This document shows, one piece after another, positions 7,739 to 20,246 of a DNA stretch of 64,000 nucleotides; within the stretch, counting starts at the first letter, position 1, and every line of letters starts with the position of its first letter. This stretch comes from Actinomadura madurae. GTDB lineage: Bacteria; Actinomycetota; Actinomycetes; Streptosporangiales; Streptosporangiaceae. The stretch lies in assembly GCF_900115095.1 (NCBI RefSeq), contig NZ_FOVH01000023.1:62001-126000 (forward strand), written 5' to 3'. Below the pieces are notes generated by a model that had not been told where the DNA came from, searched no databases, and saw only the letters and a list, made by a program, of their open reading frames with translations. Position numbers and translations under genes: made by a program.

Positions 7739-8670
7739 CCGCCGCCGCGACCCCGGAGGCGCCGCGTCCCGTCCGGTCCTCGCGGGACGCCGCCGGCCCG
7801 TCCCGCACGGCGTGGGACCGCTGGTGGTTCGGGCCCGTCCCGCGTGCGCGGATCGCGTGGCTGCGGATCATCGGCTACGCGTTCCTGCCGTTCGACATGC
7901 TGCTGCTGACCAGCAGCTCGCTGGCGCACGCGCGGCTGCCGGCCGACCTGTACCGGCCGGTCCTGCTCGGCCGGCTGCTGCACCTTCCCGCGCCCACCCC
8001 GTGGGCCATGTACACGCTGCTGGCGGTGACGATCGGGGCCGGCCTCGTCGCCGCGACCGGCCGCTTACTGCCCCGTGCGAGCGGCTACGCCGCCGCGGGC
8101 GGGTACCTGTGGTGGGTCACGGTCAGCATGTCGTACGGCAAGGTCGACCACGACCACCTGGCGCTCGTCGTCGCGCTGTTCGTGCTGCCGAGCGTCGGGC
8201 GCGCGAAGGTCGGCGACACCGCGCGCTGCGAGGCGTCGGCGTGGTCGGTGCGCGGCATCCAGATCGCGGTGGTCGCGGCCTACTTCCTGTCCGCGTGGGC
8301 GAAGGTGCGCATCGGCGGGTTCCCCGCGTGGCCGAACGGGTCGACCGTCCAGTGGGCACTGAGCCGCCGCGGTACCCCGATCGGACGCGTCTTCATCGAC
8401 CATCCGCTGCTGCTGAAGGCCAGCCAGTGGTTCATGTTCATGGCCGAGGCCATCTCACCGGTGCTGCTGTTCCTGCGCGGGCGGCCCCTGTATCTGCTGG
8501 TGCTGTTCTTCGCGGGCTTCCACGTCGTGACCTACGCGCTGATGACGATCCACTTCCTGCCGCACGCCATCTGGCTCGCCGCCTTCCTGCCGCTGGAGCG
8601 GCTCACCGTGCTGCTGCCCGAGCGGCTGCGCGGCCGGGCACCGGAGGCGGGCGAGCCCGCCGCCTCCTGA
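7735..8670 (+). CDS. HTTM-domain multi-pass membrane protein
   Basis: A 311-residue membrane protein with about seven to eight hydrophobic helices, related to the HTTM domain shared with vitamin K-dependent gamma-carboxylase. An N-terminal cytoplasmic tail of about 30 residues is followed by RIAWLRIIGYAFLPFDML. Mid-protein segments such as SYGKVDHDHLALVV and FLSAWAKVRIGGFPAW are typical of HTTM proteins. No reaction can be assigned. The start overlaps the upstream gene (ATGA). The convergent neighbour is a DCC thiol-redox protein, and HTTM and DCC genes commonly occur together, which hints at a redox-linked membrane process. Confidence 0.8.
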   Translation: MTAAATPEAPRPVRSSRDAAGPSRTAWDRWWFGPVPRARIAWLRIIGYAFLPFDMLLLTSSSLAHARLPADLYRPVLLGRLLHLPAPTPWAMYTLLAVTIGAGLVAATGRLLPRASGYAAAGGYLWWVTVSMSYGKVDHDHLALVVALFVLPSVGRAKVGDTARCEASAWSVRGIQIAVVAAYFLSAWAKVRIGGFPAWPNGSTVQWALSRRGTPIGRVFIDHPLLLKASQWFMFMAEAISPVLLFLRGRPLYLLVLFFAGFHVVTYALMTIHFLPHAIWLAAFLPLERLTVLLPERLRGRAPEAGEPAAS

Positions 8671-8677
8671 CGGCGAC

Positions 8678-9088
8678 TCAGTCGCGGGCGCCGGGACGCT
8701 GCGCGGCCGGCAGCATGCAGGCCGCCGTCCCGCCCGGCATCCGGTGGCGGTTGGCGGCCACGAGGCGGTACACGCCGTGCGCGAGCCAGCTCACCGGCGC
8801 GACGCGCATGACCACCCCGAGCGCCTTCCAGGGGCCGCCGGCCGCGGTCAGCAGCCGCCCGACCGCCTCGGCGCCGCCGCTGACGCGTCCGGCCCGGTCG
8901 ATCCACAGCACCTCGTACTCGGCCCGCTCCGCCGTGGTGCCGAGCGCGTCCAGGTCGGCGAACTGGAAGGCCACGACGGTGGCCTGAACGGGCACGTGCC
9001 GTTCCAGGAACCGGACGGAGGACGTGCAGAAGCCGCAGTCGCCGTCGTACACGAGCACCGGCCGCCCGGGCCGCTCCGGCCCGGTCAT
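8678..9088 (-). CDS. DCC family thiol-disulfide oxidoreductase (DUF393)
   Basis: 136 residues of the DUF393 family, named for its conserved DxC motif region. YDGDCGFC (14-21) gives a CxxC-type pair (Cys18, Cys21) at the end of the first strand in a thioredoxin-like fold, so a thiol-disulfide exchange role is likely. The substrate is unknown. It overlaps the HIT gene upstream by 4 nt (ATGA), implying translational coupling, and converges on the HTTM gene 7 bp away. Confidence 0.85.
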   Translation of the reverse strand: MTGPERPGRPVLVYDGDCGFCTSSVRFLERHVPVQATVVAFQFADLDALGTTAERAEYEVLWIDRAGRVSGGAEAVGRLLTAAGGPWKALGVVMRVAPVSWLAHGVYRLVAANRHRMPGGTAACMLPAAQRPGARD

Positions 9089-9711
9089 GAGGCGGGCCAG
9101 GCGTCGGCGAGCATCTGGCGGGTGTCGCGCAGGAGCTGCGGCAGCACCTTGGTGTGCCCGACGACCGGCATGAAGTTGGTGTCCCCGCCCCAGCGCGGGA
9201 CGACGTGCTGGTGCAGGTGCGCGGCGATCCCCGCCCCGGCGACGAGGCCGAGGTTCATGCCGACGTTGAAGCCCTGCGCGCCGCTCGCCTTGCGCAGCGC
9301 CGTCAGGGACCGCTGGGTGAACGCGGCGAGTTCCAGGTACTCCGGCTCCTCCAGGTCGGCGTAGTCGGCGACGTGCCGGTAGGGGACGACCATCAGGTGC
9401 CCGGAGTTGTACGGGTAGAGGTTCAGCACCGTGAACACCGACTTGCCGCGGGACACGACGAGGCCCTCCTCGTCGGTCATCTCCGGGATCTCGCAGAACG
9501 GGCAGCCGTCGCCCTCGCCCGCGCCCGTCGGCTTGTTCTCGCCCTTGATGTAGGCCATCCGGTGCGGGGTCCAGAGCCGCTGGAAGTTGTCGGGCACGCC
9601 CGCGCCGCCCCTCTCCTCCTCGAAGCGGGGTCTGCGCTCGTCCCCGGCGCCGGCCCCGGGCGCGTCCTCGCGCCCCTGGTGCACCACGGACTCCTCCGGC
9701 TCTGCGGTCAA
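9085..9711 (-). CDS. HIT-domain protein, AP4A phosphorylase-like
   Basis: 208 residues with the histidine triad HLHQHVV (His165, His167, His169) and an N-terminal CPFCEIP segment. This arrangement matches the mycobacterial AP4A phosphorylase encoded between thrS and pgsA (Rv2613c type), which cleaves diadenosine tetraphosphate phosphorolytically. The first 45 residues are acidic and probably disordered. I chose a TTG start at 9711 because AAAGGAG lies 9 nt upstream; the frame runs on upstream but overlaps the divergent Asp23 gene. Downstream it is coupled to the DCC gene. Confidence 0.85.
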   Translation of the reverse strand: MTAEPEESVVHQGREDAPGAGAGDERRPRFEEERGGAGVPDNFQRLWTPHRMAYIKGENKPTGAGEGDGCPFCEIPEMTDEEGLVVSRGKSVFTVLNLYPYNSGHLMVVPYRHVADYADLEEPEYLELAAFTQRSLTALRKASGAQGFNVGMNLGLVAGAGIAAHLHQHVVPRWGGDTNFMPVVGHTKVLPQLLRDTRQMLADAWPAS

Positions 9712-9910
9712 GGCGGCGGTCTCCTTTTGTTCACGGCCTGACCAGCAGCATAGAGAGAGACGCCCGCCGGGCTGTAGCCGGGGAGCCCCGAAGGCACCGC
9801 CGCGGCGGGCCTGCGCGCGCCGCCTCGGACGCCCGCGTCCGGCGGCCCGGCATGGCGTCCGGCGGGCCGTTCCGACACCATGGTCACCCGACCGAACGCA
9901 GGGAGCGATC

Positions 9911-10555
9911 ATGAGCGGGCTCGACAAGCACGGCGCGAACGCGGAGCAGGGACCGGAGGCCGGGCCGAGGCCCGCCTTCTCCGGACCCGGGGCCGGGCGC
10001 CAGGCGTCGGTACCGCCCCAGGGGCCACAGCAGGGAACACAGCAGGGAACGCCGCAAGGGACGCCGCTCTCCGCGCCGCCCGCGCAGCAGGCGGCCCCTC
10101 CCCCGCGCAGCGTGCTGTCGTCCGGGCCGAACGCGGTGCCGATGACGCTGCACGGCTCGTCCGGCGACCTCACCTCGCCGGTGGAGGGCCGCATCACGAT
10201 CGGGGACGCGGTGATCGGGAAGATCGCCGCGTTCGCCGCGCTGGAGGTCGAGGGCGTCGCCGCGCTCACCGCCCGGGACGAGACGCCGAGCGCGGGGGTG
10301 CGCGTGGTCCAGAACGACGACGAGGTGACGGTCGACGTCGCCATCGCCGTCGACTACGGCGTCGTGATCAAGGACGTGGCGAAGGTCGTGAAGGGCAACG
10401 TGGCGCGGGTGGCCGGGATGATGCTGGGGGCGCGGGTCGCCGCCGTCAACGTGTCCGTCGAGGACGTCCGCATGCCGCCCGCCCAGGGAGGCGCCGCGCA
10501 GAAGTCCGGGGCCCGCAAGGCGGCCGCGCCGAACACGGCGCCGCCCGCCCGCTGA
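9911..10555 (+). CDS. Asp23/Gls24 family envelope stress protein
   Basis: 214 residues. The N-terminal 75 are a Gly/Gln/Pro-rich low-complexity region that includes tandem QQGT/PQGT units. The Asp23/Gls24 domain follows (about 90-190), with GRITIGDAVIGKIAAFAA, VEGVAAL and VAVDYGVVIKDVAK as family blocks. These proteins are linked to envelope stress and sit beneath the membrane through partners. The C-terminus is a basic Ala/Pro tail. The ATG has GGGAG 5 nt upstream. It is divergent from the HIT gene and convergent with the 10586 gene; no operon partner is evident. Confidence 0.82.
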   Translation: MSGLDKHGANAEQGPEAGPRPAFSGPGAGRQASVPPQGPQQGTQQGTPQGTPLSAPPAQQAAPPPRSVLSSGPNAVPMTLHGSSGDLTSPVEGRITIGDAVIGKIAAFAALEVEGVAALTARDETPSAGVRVVQNDDEVTVDVAIAVDYGVVIKDVAKVVKGNVARVAGMMLGARVAAVNVSVEDVRMPPAQGGAAQKSGARKAAAPNTAPPAR

Positions 10556-10585
10556 GCACGCCCGGCCCGCCGCGTCCCCCGGACG

Positions 10586-11188
10586 TCACGTGCCGGCGCG
10601 GGCGTAGCACGTCTGCATGGCGACGCCGACGGAGACCGTGTTGACCTTGACTCGCTCGACCAGCTGCGGCGCGACGCCCCTGAAGTGGAACGCGTGCGGC
10701 CCGCCGCTCCGCACGGTGGTCTGCTGGGACTGGGGCTCCCGCCCTCGCAGCGACAGCTCGGCCCGGATCGCGCCGCTTGAGGCGACCGTGACGACGACGT
10801 CCACGCCCGTGGCGGTGGCCTTGTAGAACGCCGTCCCCTTCGGGCACCAGCCGATGCCGCCGGAGCCCTGAGTGGGGATCACCGGCCCGCCGCCCTGCCC
10901 TCCGGACCCGCCGCCGTCCTGCCCGGGCGGATACGGCCGGCCGCTCCCGTCCTGCTGCGGCACCGGGTTCGTCGGGGTCGCCGGGAGCCCGGAACCGTTC
11001 GGCGCCCCGCCCGCCGGCGCGGACGGGCCGGCGGTCCCCTGGGCGCCGGCGGCGCCCTTCCCGCCGTCGTCGGTGAGCGGCATGAGCAGCACGATGACGG
11101 CCGCGGCGACCAGCGCCAGCGTCCCGGTGTAGCCGGCGATCCGTGCCCAGAGCGACCGCGCCGTCCGCGCCGGCCTCCTGGACTTCAT
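10586..11188 (-). CDS. Membrane-anchored protein with Gly/Pro-rich linker
   Basis: 200 residues: a basic N-terminus (KSRRPARTARS), one membrane helix (about residues 19-38), a low-complexity Gly/Pro/Ala linker to about residue 105, and a small extracytoplasmic domain from GIGWCPKGTAFYK to CYARAGT. The two Cys (in GWCPKG and QTCYARAGT) may form a disulfide. I do not recognise the family. An ATG at 11188 is preferred, with GGGGAG 9 nt upstream; a GTG at 11212 is also in frame. It lies about 107 nt downstream of thrS on the same strand and could be read through from it. Confidence 0.65.
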   Translation of the reverse strand: MKSRRPARTARSLWARIAGYTGTLALVAAAVIVLLMPLTDDGGKGAAGAQGTAGPSAPAGGAPNGSGLPATPTNPVPQQDGSGRPYPPGQDGGGSGGQGGGPVIPTQGSGGIGWCPKGTAFYKATATGVDVVVTVASSGAIRAELSLRGREPQSQQTTVRSGGPHAFHFRGVAPQLVERVKVNTVSVGVAMQTCYARAGT

Positions 11189-11295
11189 CTCCGCTGTCTC
11201 CCCGGTCCTCACACGTGGTCGATGAGGCTACCAATTCCGTCCCGGTCAGGGTGCCCGGACCGGGCCGTGCCCGCGGGACGGGCACGGCCCCCGGC

Positions 11296-13281
11296 TCAGA
11301 TCTGGACGCGCGCCTCGACGGCCTTGACGATCTCGTCCACGGCCTCGGCGATCGGGACCCCGTTCTTCTGCTCGCCGCTGCGGTACCGGAACGACACCGC
11401 GTCCTTGGCGACGTCGTCGTCCCCCGCCAGCAGCATGTACGGGACCTTCTGCTTCTGCGCGTTGCGGATCTTCTTCTGCATCCGGTCGGAGGAGGTGTCG
11501 ACCTCGACGCGGAGACCGTGCTCGCGCAGCTTCGCCGCGACCTTCTCCAGGTGCGGGACGTGGGCGTCGCCGATCGGGATGCCGACCGCCTGGACGGGCG
11601 CCAGCCACGGCGGCATCGCGCCCGCGTAGTGCTCCAGCAGCACGCCGAAGAACCGCTCGATCGACCCGAACAGCGCCCGGTGCAGCATCATCGGCCGCTG
11701 CCGGGTGCCGTCCGCCGCCTGGTACTCCAGGCCGAACCGCTCGGGCTGGTTCGGGTCGACCTGGATGGTGGACAGCTGCCAGGTCCGGCCGATCGCGTCC
11801 TTGGCCTGCACGGAGATCTTCGGGCCGTAGAACGCGGCGCCGCCCGGGTCGGGGACGAGGTCGAGCCCGGTGGACTCGGCGGCCTCCCGCAGCGCGGCGG
11901 TGGCCTTCTCCCACATCTCCTCCGAGCCGATGAACTTCTCGGACTCGTCCCGGGTGGACAGCTCCAGGTAGAACTCGTTCAGCCCGTAGTCGCGCAGCAG
12001 GCCGAGGACGAAGTCGAGGAGCCGCTTGATCTCCTCGCCCATCTGCTCCTCGGTGCAGTAGATGTGCGCGTCGTCCTGGGTCATGCCGCGGACGCGGGTG
12101 AGGCCGTGCACGACCCCCGACTTCTCGAACCGGTACACCGACCCGAACTCGAACAGCCGCAGCGGCAGCTCCCGGTAGGACCGGCCGCGCGCCCGGTAGA
12201 TCAGGTTGTGCATCGGGCAGTTCATCGGCTTGAGGTAGTAGTCGCCGCCGTCGACCTCCATGGCCGGGAACATGTCGTCCTTGTACCAGCCGAGGTGCCC
12301 GGAGGTCTCGAACAAGTGGCCCTTGGAGATGTGGGGGGTGTTGACGAACTCGTACCCCTCCTCCTCGTGCCGGCGGCGCGAGTAGTCCTCCATCACCTTG
12401 CGGACGGCTCCGCCCTTCGGGTGGAAGACGGCGAGGCCGCTGCCGATCTCGTTCGGGAAGGAGAACAGGTCGAGCTCGGCGCCGAGCCTGCGGTGGTCGC
12501 GCTTCTCGGCCTCCTCCAGGAACCGCAGGTACTCGTCCTGCTTCTCGCGCGACTCCCACGCGGTGCCGTAGATCCGCTGGAGCTGCGGGTTCTTCTCGCT
12601 GCCGCGCCAGTAGGCGCCGCCGCTGCGCATCAGCTTAAAGGCGGGGATGACGCGGGTGGACGGCAGGTGCGGGCCGCGGCACAGGTCCTTCCAGCGCAGC
12701 TCGCCGGACTTGGCGTCGAGGTTGTCGTAGATGGTCAGCTCGCCGCCGCCCACCTCGACGTCGGCGCCGTCGGCGGCGTCCTCGACCGGCCCGGCCCCCT
12801 TCAGCCCGATCAGCTCCAGCTTGTAGGGCTCGGCGGCCAGCTCGGCACGGGCGTCCTCCTCCGAGACGGGACGGCGGGAGAACCGCTGCCCCTGCTTGAC
12901 GATCTCGCGCATCCGCTTCTCGATGCGCTTGAGGTCGTCGGGGGTGAACGGCTCGGCGACGTCGAAGTCGTAGTAGAAGCCGTTCTCCACCGGCGGGCCG
13001 ATGCCGAGCCTCGCCTCGGGGAACAGCTCCTGGACGGCCTGCGCCATCACGTGCGCGGCGGAGTGCCGCATGATCGCCCGGCCGTCGTCGGAGCCGATCT
13101 CGACGGGCTGGACGGCGTCGCCGTCGGCCAGCTCGCCGGCGAGGTCGCGCAGCTCGCCGTTGACGCGGGCGGCGACCACGGTGCGGCCGTCGGCCTCCAG
13201 TGCCTGCCCCGCGGTGGTGCCCGCCGGCACCGCCCGCTCGCTCCCGTCGAGGGTGATGCGCAGCTCAGACACGGTGGACAC
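11296..13281 (-). CDS. thrS: ThrS, threonine-tRNA ligase
   Basis: A 661-residue class II aminoacyl-tRNA synthetase charging tRNA-Thr. It has an N-terminal TGS domain (about 1-65), the editing/SAD domain with [10 protein letters not shown] (HxxxH-type site), the catalytic core with the zinc-binding Cys in NCPMHN and motif 2 around [15 protein letters not shown], and the C-terminal anticodon-binding domain (about 560-661). The GTG start is set by GAGGAG 5 nt upstream. The 240-nt region before it carries a small ORF with consecutive Thr codons and a 17-bp hairpin, so expression is probably controlled by attenuation. The family order thrS-HIT-pgsA is broken here by several genes. Confidence 0.95.
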
Positions 13282-13410
13282 GGGTACTCCTCGCGATGGT
13301 GGGTTGGGATCAGCGGGTTCCGATGCTATCGACTCGGGGTGTCCCCCGGACGCATGCGGCTCCATCGGCCGCTCCTCTCGTCGGGCGGAGGCCTGGCACG
13401 TCCCCGGACA

Positions 13411-13448
13411 GCGGAAGGGCCCCGGGAACGCTCCCGGGGCCCTTCCGC
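13411..13448 (-). terminator. Putative attenuator hairpin upstream of thrS
   Basis: GCGGAAGGGCCCCGGGA (13411-13427) and TCCCGGGGCCCTTCCGC (13432-13448) form a perfect 17-bp stem with a 4-nt loop. It starts 8 nt after the stop of a small Thr-rich ORF and ends 129 nt before thrS. No U tract follows. It could instead be the terminator of the MFS gene that ends at 13573, but the intervening ORF favours an attenuator. Confidence 0.7.
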
Positions 13449-13456
13449 GTGCGATG

Positions 13457-13522
13457 TCAGGACATGCCGCGTTCGCGCCGGGAGTGACCCGGCGTCGTCG
13501 TCTCGAAACACGCGAGCGGCAT
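13457..13522 (-). CDS. Putative threonine leader peptide of thrS
   Basis: A 21-codon ORF reading [16 protein letters not shown] and ending at TGA 13459-13457. Residues 8-10 are three consecutive Thr codons (ACG ACG ACG). Directly after them CCGGG and CCCGG can form a small stem within the ORF. The same CCCGG, extended to UCCCGG, is complementary to CCGGGA in the 5' arm of the downstream hairpin (13411-13448). Stalling at the Thr codons would cover CCGGG and free UCCCGG to block the terminator: a classical attenuation layout. A TACAGT -10 box ends 6 nt before the ATG, so the ORF is probably leaderless. The mechanism is inference. Confidence 0.65.
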
Positions 13523-13528
13523 GCCACC

Positions 13529-13534
13529 ACTGTA
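13529..13534 (-). promoter_or_regulatory. -10 box for the thrS leader transcript
   Basis: TACAGT on the minus strand lies 6 nt before the ATG of the leader ORF and is preceded by GGC (an extended -10-like context). A -35 at 17-nt spacing (GTGCCG) is weak. The position would give a leaderless leader peptide. Confidence 0.45.
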
Positions 13535-13572
13535 GCCGACGGTCACGCGCGCGGCACGGCGGTTCCGCGCGG

Positions 13573-15048
13573 TCACGCGCGGGCCCTCGGCGCTCTCGGG
13601 GCTCTCGGGGCTTCGAGCCGGTCCATGTCCTCCAGCTCGCGCCCCTTGGTCTCGGGGACGGCGCGGAACACGAACACGAACGCCAGGATGGAGAACAGCG
13701 TGTAGATGCCGTAGGCCAGGCCGAGCGAGAAGCCGGAGATCCCGGGGAAGGTCGTGGTGACCAGCCAGTTGGCGAGCCACTGCGCGGCCGCGGCGACGGC
13801 CAGCGCGGAGGCCCGGATGAAGTTGTTGAACATCTCGCCGAGCATCACCCACACGACCGGGCCCCAGGTCGCGGCGAAGGAGGCGACGAACACGTTGGCC
13901 GCGACGAGCGCGACCGGCCCGGCGAGGCCGCCGAGGCGCGGGTCGCCGTCCACCACGGGCGCGGTCGCGAAGCAGGCGGTGAGGACGCCGAGGGAGACCG
14001 CCATCCCGGCGGCGCCGGTGAGCAGCAATGGGCGCCGCCCGATCCGGTCGACGAGGGCGATCGCGACCAGCGTGAAGGCGACGTTGACCACCGAGTTGAT
14101 CACCGAGGTGAGCATCGCGTCGTCCTCGGAGAACCCGACCGCCTGCCACAGCGAGGACGAGTAGTAGAAGATCACGTTGATGCCGACGAACTGCTGGAAG
14201 ACCGACAGCAGGATGCCGGCCCACACGATCGGCAGCAGGCCGAGCCGGGGCCCGCGCAGGTCGCGCAGGTGCACGGGCCGGTCCGCGGCGATGGACCGCG
14301 CGATCTCGCCGATCTTGGTGTCCACGTCGCCGCGGCCCATGACCCGCCGCAGCACCTGCCGCGCGCGGGCCGTCTCGTGCTTCTTGACGAGGTAGCGGGG
14401 CGACTCGGGGATGGTGGTGGCGATCACGCCGTACATCACGGCGGGGACGACGCAGCTGGCGAACATCCAGCGCCAGGCGCCGCCGCCCCAGGGGAACGTC
14501 CCGGTGGCGCCGCCGTCCGAGACCTGGGCGATGACGTAGTCGACGACGAGCGCGGCGAAGATCCCGAGCACGATCGCCATCTGCTGCAGCGAGCCGAGCC
14601 GCCCGCGCAGCTCGGCCGGGGCGATCTCGGCGATGTAGGCGGGGGCGATCACCGACGCGGCGCCGATGGCGAGGCCGCCGACCAGCCGCCAGAAGGTGAG
14701 GTCGACCGCGCTGAAGGCCAGCGCCGAGCCGAGCGAGCTGACCACGAACAGCACGGAGGCGATCAGCATCACCCGCACGCGGCCGATCCGGTCGCCGAGC
14801 GGCCCGGCGAACCAGGCGCCGGCGGCGCAGCCGAGGAGCGCGGCGGACACGACGAAGCCGACGGCGAAGCCGCCGAGGCCGAACTGCTCCTTGAGCGCGT
14901 CGACCGTCCCGTTGATCACGGAGGAGTCGTAGCCGAACAGGAAGCCGCCGAGTGCCGCGGCGCCCGCGAGGAGCACCGCGATGGCCGACGAGTGCGCCGG
15001 CCCCTCCGCCCGATCGTCCGCCGCCGTCCCGCTTCCCGGTGCGCTCAT
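13573..15048 (-). CDS. Sugar-porter family MFS transporter
   Basis: A 491-residue, twelve-helix major facilitator of the sugar porter subfamily. Signatures are GFLFGYDSSVING in helix 1, PESPRYLV before the central loop, FVGINVIFYYSSSLW in helix 7, RIGRRPLL between helices 8 and 9, and PETKG after helix 12. These place it with proton-linked hexose/pentose importers of the XylE/GLUT type; the specific sugar cannot be read from sequence. The ATG at 15048 is chosen because the family's N-terminus begins there; the ribosome binding site is weak. It appears monocistronic, with the thrS leader region 50 bp downstream. Confidence 0.88.
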   Translation of the reverse strand: MSAPGSGTAADDRAEGPAHSSAIAVLLAGAAALGGFLFGYDSSVINGTVDALKEQFGLGGFAVGFVVSAALLGCAAGAWFAGPLGDRIGRVRVMLIASVLFVVSSLGSALAFSAVDLTFWRLVGGLAIGAASVIAPAYIAEIAPAELRGRLGSLQQMAIVLGIFAALVVDYVIAQVSDGGATGTFPWGGGAWRWMFASCVVPAVMYGVIATTIPESPRYLVKKHETARARQVLRRVMGRGDVDTKIGEIARSIAADRPVHLRDLRGPRLGLLPIVWAGILLSVFQQFVGINVIFYYSSSLWQAVGFSEDDAMLTSVINSVVNVAFTLVAIALVDRIGRRPLLLTGAAGMAVSLGVLTACFATAPVVDGDPRLGGLAGPVALVAANVFVASFAATWGPVVWVMLGEMFNNFIRASALAVAAAAQWLANWLVTTTFPGISGFSLGLAYGIYTLFSILAFVFVFRAVPETKGRELEDMDRLEAPRAPRAPRARA

Positions 15049-15100
15049 GGGGGCGGATCTTCCCGGGAGAGGGAACCTTATGCGGGACGCTTGACCCGGG

Positions 15101-15733
15101 TCACTCGCGGATGGCGATTCCCAGCACATGCGGTGAGGCCGGGTTGCCCCGGCCCGGCTCGGGGAACTCGAAGCGCCGCTCGGTCCGCACGGTGAAGCCG
15201 CCGCGGGCGATCCACTCGCTCGTCGGGCGGGTGAGGTGGCAGCCCGCGGCGAAGAACGGCCAGAGCACGTCGGCGCACCGCTGGAACCGGACCTTCCCCG
15301 GCGTGGCCCCCCGCACGTGCTCGTAGTAGCGCAGCTCGCCGCCCGGTCTGAGGGCGCGCCGCAGCTCGGCCAGCGCGCGGGCGGGGTCGCGGACCGAGCA
15401 GAGCACGAGCGACGCCACCGCCACGTCGAACGACGCGTCGTCGACGTCGAGGTCCTCGGCGACGCCGGGACGGACCGTCACCGGCACCGGGGCGCGGCCC
15501 GCCGCGTGGTCGGCCTTCGCGCGCAGCCGCGGCTCGGGTTCGAGCGCGACGACCTCGGTGACCTCCGGCGGGTAGTGGGCGAAGTTGGCCCCGTATCCGG
15601 CGCCCACCTCAAGCACGCGGCCGGACGCCCCGGCGAGCAACTCGGCGCGGTGCGCGTCGCCGCCCGCCCTGGCGCACTGGGCGTCCAGCCGCGGATAGAG
15701 CCGGGCGAAGATCGGATGGCTCAGGTCGCTCAT
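15101..15733 (-). CDS. Class I SAM-dependent methyltransferase
   Basis: 210 residues of the Methyltransf_11 type. Motif I is VLEVGAGYGANF, with an acidic residue at the end of strand 2 in VVALEPEPRLR and the later blocks ASFDVAVASLVLC and LRPGGELRYYEHV. The C-terminal third (FQRCADVLWPFFAAGCH) resembles METTL7/phospholipid-type methyltransferases that act on small thiols or lipids; the substrate is unknown. MSDLSHP at 15733 is the natural start; an upstream in-frame ATG adds ten non-conserved residues. No operon partner is evident. Confidence 0.82.
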   Translation of the reverse strand: MSDLSHPIFARLYPRLDAQCARAGGDAHRAELLAGASGRVLEVGAGYGANFAHYPPEVTEVVALEPEPRLRAKADHAAGRAPVPVTVRPGVAEDLDVDDASFDVAVASLVLCSVRDPARALAELRRALRPGGELRYYEHVRGATPGKVRFQRCADVLWPFFAAGCHLTRPTSEWIARGGFTVRTERRFEFPEPGRGNPASPHVLGIAIRE

Positions 15734-15794
15734 CCCCGCAGTGTCCGCCGCCCCGGCGATCACCGCAAGATCGCGGCGCGGCGGCGCGCCGCGG

Positions 15795-16280
15795 TCACCA
15801 GTCGTCGGCGGACTCGTCGGCCAGCCGGACGAGCTCGCCGTCCGGGCCGAGGTCGTAGCGGCGCATGGCGGCCAGGGGCGGCGAGTAGACGTGCACGCTC
15901 ACGGCGGGCGCGTCGCCGGTGTTGCGCACGTCGTGGACGTAGCCGGGGCCGAACGCGCGGGCCTGCCCGGCGCCGATGTCCTGCCGGGTGCGGACGCGGT
16001 CCTCCTCCAGCGTGCCGAGGGCGACGGCGAAGGCGCCCGCGGAGCCGCCGTGGTCGTGGAACCCGGTGGACTGGCCCGGCAGCCAGCTGATCAGCCAGAT
16101 CTCGTGGTCGGCGTCCAGGTGGACGCGCTCGTACCAGCGCCCGTCCGGGTCGAGGCGGACCCGGCGCACCCACTCGTGCGGGGCGGCGGCGATCTCGCGG
16201 GCCCGCTCGGCGAGCCGCGGCGGGGCGAAGCGGCCGTCCCCGGTTCCGGGCACGGCGACATCGGTCGTGGTGACGGTCAT
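15795..16280 (-). CDS. Cysteine dioxygenase (type I)
   Basis: A 161-residue cupin that oxidises L-cysteine to cysteine sulfinate with ferrous iron. The metal ligands are visible in FHDHGGSAG (His75, His77) and GYVHDV (His116). As in other bacterial enzymes, the Cys of the mammalian Cys-Tyr crosslink is replaced (Gly in HDHGG). GAGGAG lies 10 nt before the ATG. A small ORF of the conserved actinobacterial cysteine-leader type lies 45 nt upstream on the same transcript, which suggests control by cysteine availability and supports the substrate assignment. Confidence 0.9.
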   Translation of the reverse strand: MTVTTTDVAVPGTGDGRFAPPRLAERAREIAAAPHEWVRRVRLDPDGRWYERVHLDADHEIWLISWLPGQSTGFHDHGGSAGAFAVALGTLEEDRVRTRQDIGAGQARAFGPGYVHDVRNTGDAPAVSVHVYSPPLAAMRRYDLGPDGELVRLADESADDW

Positions 16281-16325
16281 CCGGGTCGTTCTCCTCGTGG
16301 TGTGGGCCGTTCGTCCTCGCCGGTT

Positions 16326-16409
16326 TCAGGACGGGCGGCGACACAGCGCGCTGGCCTGGCGGCGCAGGTCGACGTGGAGGCGCTCGTGGCGGAGTCCGGT
16401 GATCGTCAC
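16326..16409 (-). CDS. Cysteine-type leader peptide upstream of cysteine dioxygenase
   Basis: A 27-codon ORF with a GTG start. Its core RHERLHVDLRRQASALC matches the short actinobacterial 'putative leader peptides' of the form RxHVDLxRxxSALC found before sulfur-metabolism genes. The single Cys codon is near the end (residue 23). A promoter with TTGACT (16440-16445) and ATCCTT (16416-16421), 18-nt spacer, ends 6 nt before the GTG, so it should be leaderless. Only 45 nt separate its stop from the dioxygenase ATG, and I see no terminator hairpin between them, so control may act on translation or via re-initiation. The mechanism is inference. Confidence 0.75.
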   Translation of the reverse strand: MTITGLRHERLHVDLRRQASALCRRPS

Positions 16410-16415
16410 GGCGAC

Positions 16416-16445
16416 AAGGATGGTCCAGATTCCCCATAAAGTCAA
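16416..16445 (-). promoter_or_regulatory. Promoter of the cysteine leader/dioxygenase transcript
   Basis: The -35 is TTGACT (16440-16445) and the -10 is ATCCTT (16416-16421), with an 18-bp spacer on the minus strand. The predicted start point coincides with the leader GTG at 16409. Confidence 0.5.
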
Positions 16446-16542
16446 TCGGAAATAACAGGTAGCCGATACCCAGGGGCCGGGCCGGATCTCCCTCCAGGGG
16501 GGCAGGTCAGTGCGGCGCCGCGCGTTCTAGGCTCACGACCAA

Positions 16543-17796
16543 ATGAACGAACCAGACCACCACGCATCCGGCGGCAAGGCCCGGCTGGTCGCCGGCGTCC
16601 GCGCCGCAGTCGTGCCCGGACGGGACGACCCGGCCGTCATGCTGCTGCCCGGGTCCCTCGCGCTGCGCGTCCCGATCCTGGTCTTCCTGCTGGCGCTGAC
16701 GGTCGGCTTCACCGGCGGGTCCATCGCGATCCCGATCCAGATGTACGGCGTCGATCCGGGGCTGGCGTGGCCGCTCGGCGTGCTGCAGGCGACGCCGCTG
16801 ATCTTCGCGGCCCGGTGGCCGCTCGCCGCCTGGCGGATCGCGATGACCGGGCTGGTGCTCACGGTCATCGTCCGGCACGGCGACGGCTTCATGCCGTGGC
16901 CGGTGACCGCGATCCTGGCCCTGGTCGTCATCCTGTTCTTCACCGGCGTCGGAGCCGACCGGCAGACCACCGTCGGCGTCGGCACGGTGACGATCGCCGC
17001 GGCGCTCCTGCCCGCGGTGCTGCTCGGGATGCCGGGCTGGTTCGGGATGATCCTCGCCGGGATCGCGGCGCTCGCGCTGACGTTCGGCGACGCGGTCGGC
17101 GGGCGGCACTCGGCCGTGGAGGAGCTGCGCCGGCGCGAGGAGCAGCACCGCGCCGACCTGGCCCGGCAGGCGGTGCTGGAGGAGCGCGCCCGCATCGCCC
17201 GCGAGCTGCACGACGTGGTCGCGCACCACATGTCGGTGATCGCGATGCAGGCGGAGGCCGCCCCCTACAAGATCCCGGACCTGCCGGACGCCGCCCGCCA
17301 GACGTTCGGGGTGGTCCGGGACGCGGCCCGCGAGGCGCTCACCGAGACGCGCCGGGTCGTCGGGCTGCTGCGCGCGGACGACGAGGGCGCCGAGCGCGCC
17401 CCCCAGCCCGGCCTCGACCGGCTGGACGACCTGGTCGCCGCGGCCCGCCGCTCCGGGCTGTCGGTCGCGACCGTCGTCGTGGGGATGCCGCGCCCGCTGA
17501 ACGCCGGCGTCGACCTGTCGGCGTACCGGATCGTCCAGGAGTCGCTGAGCAACGCCTCCCGTTACGCGCCGGGCTCGCGGGTGCACGTCGAGGTGAAGTA
17601 CGGCACCGGCTCACTCGTGGTGTCGGTCACCGACGACGGCGCCCGCGGCGAGCCGGAGCAGTCGCAGGGCGGCGGCCACGGGCTGGTCGGCATGCGCGAG
17701 CGCGTGACGATGCTCGGCGGGAGCCTGGACGCCGGGCCGCTGGACGACGGCTGGGCGGTCGCCGCCGAACTGCCCTATGGGGATCCGGACCGATGA
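16543..17796 (+). CDS. NarL-type sensor histidine kinase
   Basis: A 417-residue kinase. Five or so membrane helices span residues 40-185. A short coiled linker leads to the HisKA_3 dimerisation domain with RARIARELHDVVAHH (phospho-acceptor His223), then HATPase_c with DDLVAAARRSGL, an N box at YRIVQESLSNASRY and a G box at GGGHGLVGMRERV. There is no large extracellular sensor, so the signal is probably in the membrane. It is followed 37 nt later by its response regulator. A -10-like TAGGCT is at 16528-16533, giving a very short or no leader. Confidence 0.9.
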   Translation: MNEPDHHASGGKARLVAGVRAAVVPGRDDPAVMLLPGSLALRVPILVFLLALTVGFTGGSIAIPIQMYGVDPGLAWPLGVLQATPLIFAARWPLAAWRIAMTGLVLTVIVRHGDGFMPWPVTAILALVVILFFTGVGADRQTTVGVGTVTIAAALLPAVLLGMPGWFGMILAGIAALALTFGDAVGGRHSAVEELRRREEQHRADLARQAVLEERARIARELHDVVAHHMSVIAMQAEAAPYKIPDLPDAARQTFGVVRDAAREALTETRRVVGLLRADDEGAERAPQPGLDRLDDLVAAARRSGLSVATVVVGMPRPLNAGVDLSAYRIVQESLSNASRYAPGSRVHVEVKYGTGSLVVSVTDDGARGEPEQSQGGGHGLVGMRERVTMLGGSLDAGPLDDGWAVAAELPYGDPDR

Positions 17797-17821
17797 TCGC
17801 CGGGACCTTCACCGGGACCCG

Positions 17822-17827
17822 TAAGGT
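17822..17827 (+). promoter_or_regulatory. Possible internal -10 box for the response regulator gene
   Basis: TAAGGT ends 6 nt before the GTG at 17834, in the 37-nt gap after the kinase. The spacing is that of a leaderless start, so the regulator may also be transcribed on its own. Confidence 0.35.
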
Positions 17828-17833
17828 TGGTTC

Positions 17834-18508
17834 GTGACGATTCGGGTGCTGATCGCCGACGACCAGGTGATGATCCGCGACGGGCTCGCGGCGCTGCTGT
17901 CCTCCGATCCCGGGATCGAGGTGATCGGGCAGGCGGGCAACGGCCGCGAGGCGGTGGAGATGGCCCGCCGGCTCGACCCGGACGTGGTCGTGATGGACAT
18001 CCGGATGCCGGAGATGGACGGCCTCGCCGCGACCGCCGAGCTGGCGGGCGACCTCGACCCCGACGCCGACCCCGCGGCGGCGCGGCCGAAGGTGCTCGTC
18101 CTCACGACGTTCGACCTGGACGAGTACGTCTACGAGGCGCTCGGCGCGGGGGCGAGCGGGTTCCTGCTCAAGGACGCGTCGGCCGCCGACCTGGTGACCG
18201 GCGTCCGGGTGGTGGCGGCCGGGGACGCGCTGCTCGCCCCGTCCATCACCCGGCGGCTGATCGGCGACTTCGCCCGCCGCCGCCGGCACCAGCGACCGAG
18301 CCCGAAGGCCACCGCCGGCCTGACGCCGCGCGAGCTGGACGTGCTGCGGCTCATCGCCCGCGGCCTGTCCAACGCCGAGATCGCCGCCGAGCTGGTGCTG
18401 GCCGAGCAGACGGTCAAGACGCACGTGGGGCACGTGCTGACCAAGCTCATGCTGCGCGACCGCACCCAGGCCGTCGTCTACGCCTACGAGAACGGCCTGG
18501 TCGGCTAG
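17834..18508 (+). CDS. NarL/LuxR-family response regulator
   Basis: 224 residues. The N-terminal receiver has the acidic pocket (ADD at 8-10), phospho-acceptor Asp55 in VVVMDIRMPEMDG, and the conserved Lys in GFLLKDAS. The C-terminal GerE/LuxR helix-turn-helix is LTPRELDVLRLIARGLSNAEIA. A basic linker (RRRRHQRPSPK) joins them. The partner is the kinase directly upstream. No transporter or enzyme gene is linked on this strand, so its targets cannot be guessed. A GTG start is used because the receiver begins immediately after it. Confidence 0.9.
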   Translation: MTIRVLIADDQVMIRDGLAALLSSDPGIEVIGQAGNGREAVEMARRLDPDVVVMDIRMPEMDGLAATAELAGDLDPDADPAAARPKVLVLTTFDLDEYVYEALGAGASGFLLKDASAADLVTGVRVVAAGDALLAPSITRRLIGDFARRRRHQRPSPKATAGLTPRELDVLRLIARGLSNAEIAAELVLAEQTVKTHVGHVLTKLMLRDRTQAVVYAYENGLVG

Positions 18509-18517
18509 GGGCCGGCC

Positions 18518-19471
18518 TCAGCGCGAGGGATCGAGGACGAGCTTGCCGGTGGTGCGGCGGGCGCGCAGGTCCTCGTGGGCCCGCCGGACCTCGGTGAGCC
18601 CGTACTCGCCGCCGCCGATCACGCGCAGGCGGCCCTCCGTCGCGAGACCGAACAGCTCGCCCAGGGCCTGGCCCATCACGTCGCCGGGCAGCCGGAACAC
18701 GTGCGCCAGCCACATGCCCGAGATCGTGGTGGAGTGCGCCATCAGCGCGGCGGGCCGGACGGGTGCCGGCTCCTTGCGCGAGGCCATGCCGTAGAAGGCG
18801 AGGCGGCCGAACGGGGCGAGGGCGCGCAGGCTCTGGTCGGTGACCGTGCCGCCGGTCATCTCCAGCACGGTGTCGACGCGCCTGCCCTCGTTGGCCTCGA
18901 TGAGCGCGTCCTTGAGGTCGGGCTCGTTGGCGTCGATCGCGACGTCGGCGCCGAGGTCGAGGGCGAGGGCGCGTTTCTCCTCCGACGACGCGGTGGCGAT
19001 GACGCGGCCGGCGCCCCAGGCCTTGGCGAGCTGGACGGCGAGCGTCCCGACCCCGCCCGCGGCGGCGTGCACGACGACGGACTCGCCCGGCGCCAGGTGC
19101 ACGCTGCGGCGCAGCAGCAGCCATGCCGACGCGCCCTGGACGATCATGCCGAGCGCGGTGACGTCGTCGATGGCGTCCGGGACGTCCCAGGCCAGCGCCT
19201 CGGGCGCGACGGCCTTCTCGGCGTAGCCGCCGGTGCCGACGAGCGCGACGACGCGGCGGCCCCCGGCGGTGCCGACGACCTCGCCGCCCGGCACCATCGG
19301 CAGCGTGGACGCCGACAGGTAGCTGTTCTCGGCCTGGTGGGTGTCGGCGTAGTTGATCCCGGCCCGCGCGACGTCGATGAGCAGATGGCCCGGCCCGGCG
19401 ACCGGGTCGGGCAGCTCGGTGACGTTCAGGACCTCGGGCCCGCCGAACTCGGTGATCTGGATGGCGCGCAT
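18518..19471 (-). CDS. Quinone reductase-type zinc-independent alcohol dehydrogenase family protein
   Basis: A 317-residue MDR-superfamily oxidoreductase of the NADPH:quinone reductase (QOR) type. The N-terminal GroES-like domain has GINYADTHQ. The Rossmann domain has the nucleotide loop AAAGGVGTLAVQLAKAWG. Zinc-binding Cys and His residues of true alcohol dehydrogenases are absent, as expected for quinone reductases. It converges on the response regulator gene and lies 28 nt downstream of the SDR gene on the same strand, so the two may form an operon controlled from the divergent promoter at 20247-20292. Confidence 0.85.
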   Translation of the reverse strand: MRAIQITEFGGPEVLNVTELPDPVAGPGHLLIDVARAGINYADTHQAENSYLSASTLPMVPGGEVVGTAGGRRVVALVGTGGYAEKAVAPEALAWDVPDAIDDVTALGMIVQGASAWLLLRRSVHLAPGESVVVHAAAGGVGTLAVQLAKAWGAGRVIATASSEEKRALALDLGADVAIDANEPDLKDALIEANEGRRVDTVLEMTGGTVTDQSLRALAPFGRLAFYGMASRKEPAPVRPAALMAHSTTISGMWLAHVFRLPGDVMGQALGELFGLATEGRLRVIGGGEYGLTEVRRAHEDLRARRTTGKLVLDPSR

Positions 19472-19499
19472 GACTCTCCTTCGAAGGCCTGGAGCCCGC

Positions 19500-20246
19500 T
19501 CAGCGCGGGCCGGGGACGCCGCGGAACGCGAACGGCTCGGACGGGCGTCCGGGTACGACGTACCAGGCCTCGCCGGTCCCGTCGGCGTTCAGGATGCGCA
19601 TGAACGCCTCGACGACGTCGCCCACGTCCAGGATCGGGAAGCCGGTCTCCTCAAGCTGCCCCTTCATCGGGGTGAGGATGTCGGTGTCGGCGAAAGAGGG
19701 GCAGAGCGCGTTCACGCGGACGCCCTCCTCGGCGAACGTCGGGCCGAGGGCGCGGACGAGGCCGACGACGGCGGCCTTGTTCGCGCCGTAGACGGGGTCG
19801 AACGGCGTCGCCGTCAGCGCGGCCATGCTGGCGGTGGCGACGATGTCGCCGCCGCCGCGGGCGCGCAGGGCCGGCAGCGCGGCGTGCGCGCCGAACACGA
19901 CGCCGTCGAGGTTGATGCCCATGGCCCGCCGGTACGCGGCGAGGTCGAAGTCGTCCCCCACGCCGCCGCTCCCGGCGACCCCGGCGTTGAGGAACGCCAC
20001 GTCCAGGCCACCGAACCGCTCGACGGCGGTCGCCACGGCGGCCTCGCTCGCGGCGGGCTCGCGGACGTCGCAGCGGACGAACGCCCCGTCCAGCTCCTTC
20101 GCCAGCGCGTCCCCGGCCTCCGCGTCGACGTCGGCGAGGACCACGCGGGCGCCCTCGCCGGCGAGCCGGCGCGCCACCGCGGCGCCGATGCCGTTGGATC
20201 CACCCGTGATCAGCGCGACCTTGCCGGTGCCGTCGAAGGCTGGCAT
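19500..20246 (-). CDS. Short-chain dehydrogenase/reductase
   Basis: A 248-residue classical SDR. The cofactor loop is TGGSNGIG (14-21), with an Asp after strand 2 (LADVDAE) that favours NAD over NADP, FLNAGVAG in the NAG position, a catalytic Ser region ATASMAAL and the YGANK active site (Tyr and Lys). The substrate is not evident; linkage to an acyl-CoA dehydrogenase suggests fatty-acid or beta-hydroxyacyl oxidation. It is divergent from that dehydrogenase across a 46-bp gap containing a perfect palindrome, so both sides are probably controlled by the TetR protein at 21513. Confidence 0.87.
   Translation of the reverse strand: MPAFDGTGKVALITGGSNGIGAAVARRLAGEGARVVLADVDAEAGDALAKELDGAFVRCDVREPAASEAAVATAVERFGGLDVAFLNAGVAGSGGVGDDFDLAAYRRAMGINLDGVVFGAHAALPALRARGGGDIVATASMAALTATPFDPVYGANKAAVVGLVRALGPTFAEEGVRVNALCPSFADTDILTPMKGQLEETGFPILDVGDVVEAFMRILNADGTGEAWYVVPGRPSEPFAFRGVPGPR

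Follow-up and report, generated by a model that had tools for sequence, protein, structure and literature searches.

Why is the threonyl-tRNA synthetase gene of Actinomadura madurae preceded by a very short open reading frame that encodes three consecutive threonines and stops just short of a perfect hairpin? The locus lies in the window analysed here, a stretch of 64,000 nt of contig NZ_FOVH01000023.1, and an initial annotation had read it as a threonine leader peptide and attenuator in front of thrS. Conservation, stall folding and codon usage lend support to that reading, and we consider it very likely that the short ORF, here called thrL, acts as the sensing element in a ribosome-mediated attenuation of thrS transcription.

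On re-reading, the coordinates of the ORF, its ACG triplet, the TACAGT box 6 nt before the ATG, the 8 nt that separate the ORF from the hairpin at 13448-13411 of the window and the perfect 17-bp hairpin itself were all exact (Table 1). The small stem CCGGG/CCCGG is also present and slightly longer than originally noted, with 7 bp (CGCCGGG/CCCGGCG). The position of the -10 box predicts a leaderless thrL transcript. The leader peptide ends in RRERGMS and its target is a full-length thrS, in which 21/21 Thr codons are ACC. We set the start of thrS at GTG 13281, 129 nt beyond the hairpin, because relatives align from this codon. The thrS frame stays open 5′ of it, and an in-frame ATG at 13365, 28 codons before the GTG and with GAGAGGAG 6 nt upstream, might serve thrS as another start on P1 transcripts. 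Folding of the 131-nt region gives -84.6 kcal/mol, well below the value of 200 shuffles (-61.3, sd 3.89; z -5.99). When the 64-kb window was scanned for a TANNNT box, a gap of 5-8 nt, a start, a short ORF that repeats some residue in three successive codons and a hairpin of at least 14 bp within 70 nt, the thrL locus was the only match; 20 random sequences of equal dinucleotide make-up gave none. A T-box was not found by Rfam in positions 8000-20000 at E values up to 5, the only hits being six sub-threshold chance matches.

Table 1. Features of the thrL leader region (13534-13411) and of thrS, in window coordinates.
Feature	Position	Strand	Basis and remarks
P1 -10 box TACAGT	13529..13534	-	Read directly; 6 nt before thrL ATG; leaderless transcript predicted
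thrL leader ORF, 21 codons, ATG at 13522	13457..13522	-	Translation; frame open in 60/60 genus loci
Regulatory codons ACG ACG ACG	13493..13501	-	Codon count over 60 genus loci
Stem 1 (1:2), CGCCGGG/CCCGGCG, 7 bp, arms 13494-13488 / 13482-13476	13476..13494	-	Alignment; excludes antiterminator
Segment 2, CUCCCGG, 5′ strand of antiterminator	13478..13484	-	Stall folding
Segment 3, CCGGGAG within hairpin 5′ arm, 3′ strand of antiterminator	13431..13437	-	Pairing check and stall folding
Terminator-like hairpin, perfect 17 bp, 4-nt loop, without proper U-run	13411..13448	-	Covariation
Outer stem AUGCCGC (13522-13516) / GCGGCAU (13470-13464), start-codon region to ORF end	13464..13522	-	Folding and partner swap
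P2, second -10-like box TAGCAT, 41 nt before thrS start, 3′ of hairpin	13323..13328	-	Motif in genus loci
thrS Shine-Dalgarno (SD) GAGGAG	13287..13292	-	Read directly
thrS, threonyl-tRNA synthetase (ThrRS), GTG start	11296..13281	-	TIGR00418, 648 bits

An alignment of upstream regions had been named in advance as the test of the leader, and the ORF, its Thr codons and the following hairpin are kept in all 60 loci of the Actinomadura-like genus. The sample consists of 60 genomes searched with ThrS, of which 60 yielded thrS, and the upstream DNA of every one was read (L001 was dropped as a duplicate of L002). The thrS of the window shows 89-90% DNA identity to those of Actinomadura rudentiformis and A. 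terrae, both of which carry the leader, and ~83% to the next genera. A TANNNT box precedes an in-frame start by 6-10 nt at every locus and by 6-7 nt at 58, a spacing that is partly by construction since the leader start was taken as the nearest in-frame ATG or GTG with such a box 3-11 nt before it. The frame is open in 60/60, though it also served to find the start, and the number of codons preceding the first Thr ranges from 6 to 20. Thr-Thr-Thr is encoded by 57 leaders and the remaining three have two Thr among the three positions. The first Thr codon is ACG in 60/60, the second is ACG in 52, ACC in 6, GCG in 1 and GAG in 1, and the third is ACG in 59 and GCG in 1. The hairpin core GGCCCCGGGA occurs at all 60 loci, 14-28 nt past the stop codon.

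Beyond the genus, the class-level set held 89 loci, 13 of them without a located thrS and two with too little upstream DNA. A TTTPG leader was found at none of the other 74, which all had 400 nt or more upstream, and it is absent from all 64 named non-Actinomadura loci scanned (66 of 80 named loci were scanned, L327-L340 being left out). These two scans rule out a leader before thrS throughout the whole class. Other short TT-containing ORFs with a box (L065, L101 and L323) were judged by eye to be unrelated to thrL. One genus member carries an extra, divergent ThrRS-like gene (G027:C3:12452-13623, in pieces of 50% and 39% identity), which is possibly a resistance copy against a ThrRS inhibitor.

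Covariation backs the hairpin and, by one event, stem 1. The cores were aligned for the 57 distinct sequences among the 60, and one further step on the genus leaders used 54 of 60. Across the 57 distinct leaders the model of stem 1 plus hairpin shows both-side changes in 78 cells, where shuffles give 21.2 (0/500 as high), and nearly all of the 78 lie in the hairpin; the count of further pair types was not above shuffles (317/500 as high). The lower hairpin pairs 78-112, 79-110 and 80-109 (alignment numbering) account for 25, 24 and 26 both-side changes, and the combination of these with nine frozen pairs, 81-108 to 89-100, fits a putative double pairing duty. In stem 1, 99.5% of cells are paired across the 57 distinct rows and five pairs are invariant; its single compensatory change, GC to AU in L016, alters the peptide from Gly to Asp. 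The antiterminator core CCCGG/CCGGG is paired in 57/57 rows (one by G-U); the two outer pairs of the antiterminator are lost in 15 and 18 rows. It does not covary in these 57 rows (253/500 shuffles as high) and, because its core hardly varies, covariation is unable to support it. In the outer stem, own partners pair better than swapped ones over 56 distinct loci (mean -18.8 against -16.1 kcal/mol, 0/200 shuffles as good, with kinship ignored).

The window sequence was then folded with a ribosome assumed to occlude 13 nt, counted from where the A-site codon begins. In nascent RNA reaching to the hairpin loop, stem 1 forms when no ribosome is present. With the first, second or third Thr codon in the A site, CUCCCGG pairs with 13437-13431 over 7, 7 and 5 bp respectively, and with a Pro, Gly or stop codon there neither stem 1 nor the antiterminator forms. 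In full-length RNA the hairpin was preferred in both cases tried (no ribosome and Thr2), even with the 5′ part masked, and since it wins at equilibrium any switch can only be kinetic. The proposal that stem 1, antiterminator and hairpin are mutually exclusive is upheld by complementarity and stall folding and left without backing by antiterminator covariation.

As a putative terminator the hairpin is strong and covarying (median -33.9 kcal/mol) and lacks a proper U-run: the 8 nt after the stem contain 1-4 T in the 60 loci, TTT occurs within 12 nt in 32/60, and a sigma-70 and U-run terminator scan found nothing. Moreover, a TA[CG][CG]AT box lies 3′ of the hairpin, 20-110 nt before thrS, in 52/60 genus loci, and TAGCAT-like boxes before thrS were seen by eye in seven family loci that have no leader. 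This P2 box suggests that part of thrS transcription may escape attenuation. P2 is likely to be the old promoter, to which P1 and thrL were added later; basal thrS expression would then bypass the attenuator. A transcription start downstream of 13448, which the initial annotation had counted as evidence against a leader, is thus partly present as the conserved TAGCAT box at 13328-13323, which may start unattenuated thrS transcripts.

To place the leader in the family, a covariance model of the genus leader (R1) and a model of the type-B leader described below (R2) were run over the same 298 genomes. R1 found type-A leaders before full-length thrS in nine further genera, at 26 loci (24 of them read, L181-L204, plus those of G300 and G192); 22 of the 24 have Thr-Thr-Thr, and L194 and L198 have Thr-x-Thr. 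Its matches also included a second kind, the type-B leader (typically MK/QRAxxTTTPExVPAR), which stands in front of thrS2, a short paralogue; one step on these type-B leaders used 28 of 29, with L214 left out and L226 and L228 trimmed by 12 nt. Five of 59 R1 loci read (L213, L217 and L236-L238) are plain hairpins and not thrL, and weak R1 matches in G228 and G337 had neither leader nor ThrS and were discarded. thrS2 aligns only to the catalytic and anticodon-binding part of ThrS, has no Pfam match to the second-additional (editing) domain, and has ThrRS as its closest solved relatives.

A ThrS2 search placed the paralogue in at least 113 of the 298 genomes, counting those with a listed match above the level of the main thrS and leaving weak matches aside. 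R2 matched 16-196 nt upstream of thrS2 in 110 of the 113. Of the other three, G253 has a leader that R2 missed, and the copies in G366 and G373 are 5′-truncated; in G373 a leader with a thrS2 start sits 20 kb from the truncated copy. Eight R2 matches of at least 49 bits fall in genomes without a listed thrS2. Five of these (G231, G273, G289, G352 and G419) are at thrS2 fragments or decayed copies, that of G376 has a thrS2-like start by eye and no tblastn match, that of G215 lies at a contig end next to what by eye is the 5′ end of thrS2, and that of G292 is likewise at a contig end. Type-B leaders, some of them intact, stand before decayed or fragmentary thrS2 in L258, L260, L454, L455 and L459, where the leader appears to have outlived its gene and to mark a lost thrS2.

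Full-length thrS carries the leader in 65/298 genomes (39 of the genus and 26 others), and none of these 65 has thrS2, each giving a single ThrS match at E up to 1e-60 among the matches listed. By genus, thrS2 is found in 29 of 68, type A in 10 and both in none (P = 0.0022 on the assumption of independent genera, which does not hold). In the other 120 genomes neither thrS2 nor a type-A leader is among the matches listed, save thrS2 remnants in several. R2 also matched 32 of the 61 genomes of a Streptomyces set, defined as the genus of G148, whose thrS has 84-94% DNA identity to named Streptomyces in four loci compared. The 29 strongest of these loci all precede thrS2 and all encode TTTP[ED]. 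No TTP leader was found before the housekeeping thrS of 21 named Streptomyces, up to 450 nt upstream (two had only 205 and 342 nt). Across the class R2 matched 46/276 genomes in five families, some of these matches being a different, aromatic leader.

R2 matches of 134-143 nt (16 fetched, L241-L256) were set aside, as most are this aromatic leader before a DAHP-synthase-like gene (by eye) and not thrL. It reads MQRNFWRFYGYRP... in L241, L243-L251, L254 and L255 (for example around base 213 of L244), with related forms in L252, L253 and L256, and most have a TATAGT-like box and a start-to-stop pairing GCAGCG/CGCTGC; it is probably an attenuator responding to aromatic amino acids. In L205 a type-A-like leader, MAYGHASTTTPGVPRRDAA near base 132, and a hairpin stand before a gene for a ferric-reductase-like membrane protein (by eye), and the fragmented assembly concerned (G212) gave no thrS match. 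In L206 and L228 the type-B frame ends early or shifts past the Thr codons with the stem sequence kept, and L355 has another tail; the peptide tail is therefore hardly under selection. In L181-L204 and L206-L239, ~30-80 nt after the start of the hairpin, a pre-SD segment (for example CACUCGCC or UCGCUCCC) can base-pair with the hairpin apex. Own partners were compared with swapped ones, and 0 and 1 of 200 shuffles were as good (kinship ignored; no apex was found in L195, L201 and L205); by eye the segment also pairs with the SD. At these loci, which are type B or non-genus type A, the segment may contribute a translational control.

These last observations bear on whether the leader might act through translation, Rho-dependent termination or RNA stability instead of intrinsic termination. 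Such an action would accommodate a hairpin without a U-run and a segment that can pair with both apex and SD. Against it, a perfect, covarying hairpin right past the ORF is what a terminator predicts, and direct masking of the thrS start is impossible in the window because 129 nt, including the P2 box, separate the hairpin from thrS. We regard control at these other levels as unlikely.

Codon usage provides a further line of evidence. ACG is expected to be read by its own tRNA, tRNA-Thr(CGU). The Thr codons of the leaders are ACG in 171/177 cases in the genus, 61/71 in other type-A leaders (23 leaders, including L205 and excluding L194 and L198, where no Thr run was found), 87/87 in type B of the family and 84/84 in type B of Streptomyces (28 of 29 leaders). 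The codon is rare in the attenuated genes, with ACG 8/639 in thrS of 30 genus loci, 14/480 in other type-A thrS (5′ parts, 23 of 24 loci) and, of ACC+ACG, 3/256 and 1/277 in thrS2 of the family and of Streptomyces, counts that come from related loci and are not independent. In genes without the attenuator ACG use is 14-45%: it makes up 166/617 in the main thrS of 21 named Streptomyces and 27/189 in that of seven family genomes, and 277/1243 in alaS and 574/1281 in valS (30 genus genomes each). The share of G-ending codons in attenuated genes is 19-72% for Ala, Pro, Ser, Val, Leu, Gly and Arg, and hence ACG avoidance is not a general preference of these genes. In four genomes with both paralogues the main thrS has 7, 5, 14 and 3 ACG, and thrS2 has none among 10, 7, 11 and 13. 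According to the selective-charging theory, leaders use the codon most sensitive to starvation (PMC1183508), from which a target's avoidance of the same codon would follow naturally.

The codon split also bears on the possibility that the hairpin is a mere terminator of the MFS gene upstream, with an accidental ORF in front of thrS. This gene lies on the same strand as thrL and ends at 13573, and an MFS homologue is present in the fetched stretch of 53/60 genus loci. Yet the hairpin is kept at the seven loci without such a homologue, where the upstream gene is methyltransferase-like in five and points away in L058 (by eye), and the arrangement is likewise kept in the Streptomyces thrS2 loci, 0/29 of which have an MFS homologue nearby. 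Moreover, the Thr codons and the spacing of start and box are conserved, and the codon split has no place in such an account. The seven loci and their upstream genes led us to reject the hairpin as a terminator of the MFS gene only, which we consider very improbable. Least probable of all is an autorepression by leader-bound ThrRS, as at E. coli thrS, in which the Thr codons would be incidental. It is favoured by thrS being the target and by the high degree of structure in the RNA. Against it, the stem 1 loop varies in sequence between species, a long distance separates the hairpin from the start codon, and both the Thr codons and the ACG avoidance of thrS would be left unexplained.

We therefore return to the ribosome-mediated attenuator and propose the following course of events. 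Judging from the -10 box, RNA polymerase would start at or beside the thrL ATG, and because the transcript would start there the ribosome would begin at the 5′ end of the RNA. With plentiful charged tRNA-Thr for ACG, the ribosome would reach the stop codon, and the 17-bp hairpin would form and stop the polymerase. When this charged tRNA is scarce, the ribosome would stall on one of the three ACG codons and cover the 5′ arm of stem 1; the freed CUCCCGG could then pair with CCGGGAG in the 5′ arm of the hairpin, and the polymerase would continue into thrS. P2, beyond the hairpin, may supply basal thrS. As thrS is almost without ACG, its mRNA would be translatable while ACG decoding is limiting. 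Weighing against an attenuator are the missing U-run, the equilibrium fold that favours the hairpin, the antiterminator that shows no covariation and loses its outer pairs in some rows, the bypass through P2, the 3/60 leaders without a Thr triplet, the 74 class-level loci outside the genus that lack a TTTPG leader (type A was later found in nine further genera of the family), the leader of L205 before an unrelated gene and the model matches that are not thrL.

Taken together, the data lead us to favour, with some reserve, a codon-polarised switch. Here thrL would measure the ACG-reading tRNA-Thr alone, and the ThrRS gene under its control, purged of ACG, could be made exactly when that tRNA is empty. 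The attenuator would be placed on at most one ThrRS gene per genome, namely thrS2 if present and the housekeeping thrS in some lineages without thrS2. thrS2 would then be an emergency ThrRS, and the only ThrRS of Actinomadura would have been turned into one.

How does this compare with known systems? The thr operon attenuator of E. coli combines a leader peptide of Thr codons with alternative hairpins and controls biosynthesis genes. The thrS/thrZ pair of B. subtilis consists of two ThrRS genes that are T-box-regulated under starvation control, with no leader peptide, and differs in this from the window, which has no T-box match. The E. coli thr leader has eight ACC codons (PMC1183508), in contrast to the ACG codons and synthetase target of the leader in the window. 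Selective-charging theory was developed on E. coli (Elf and Ehrenberg 2005, PMC1183508). In the present case the leader is actinobacterial, and the codon that it uses is the opposite of the one in its target. Candidate ribosome-mediated attenuators on actinobacterial aminoacyl-tRNA synthetase genes have likewise been described, for other amino acids, as leaders of Streptomyces leuS and trpS, in a study that reports no conserved structure upstream of threonine operons (Seliverstov et al. 2005, PMC1262725, as far as its available text goes).

The closest relative is thrL (SLIV_19412) of Streptomyces lividans TK24, MKRVRPFLETTPGFVPAR, which precedes thrS (SLIV_19410), is reported to be leaderless from RNA-seq and is followed by one hairpin without a U-run (PMC8079986, Table 4). 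The initial annotation knew of no leader-peptide attenuator for an actinobacterial thrS, a statement that this entry makes wrong in the letter, though the S. lividans leader is of the sister type. Both are short ORFs with consecutive Thr codons (ETTPG in S. lividans) and a hairpin without a U-run before a ThrRS gene, the window leader being predicted leaderless from the position of its -10 box. They differ in that the S. lividans peptide has two Thr in a row and ends in VPAR, as in type B, and the window peptide ends in RRERGMS. We read 29 type-B leaders of Streptomyces, every one of them in front of thrS2, and 27 of these end in VPAR; from this ending we infer that SLIV_19410 is probably a thrS2. 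In the available text of the papers compared, a thrS leader appears only in PMC8079986 and not in PMC1262725, PMC4833913, PMC13236596 or PMC1183508, and the words thrS and threonine are absent from that of PMC4833913 and PMC13236596. SCO3778 is not mentioned among the literature matches listed. In mainly open-access literature, with the exclusion not sought by name, we found no description of a leader on the housekeeping thrS, of the exclusion between attenuated thrS and thrS2 or of the codon split. Thus this kind of leader is known and its sister is in print, and the paralogue exclusion and the codon split are the new parts.

In summary, the housekeeping thrS would be one more actinobacterial synthetase gene that a leader peptide controls. 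ThrRS genes that have an attenuator and those that lack one differ more than 10-fold in their use of the codon that the leader reads, which offers a natural test of selective charging. Lastly, many actinobacteria have a second ThrRS that lacks editing, and these data suggest for it a possible role as a reserve enzyme, made in response to threonine starvation or ThrRS inhibitors.
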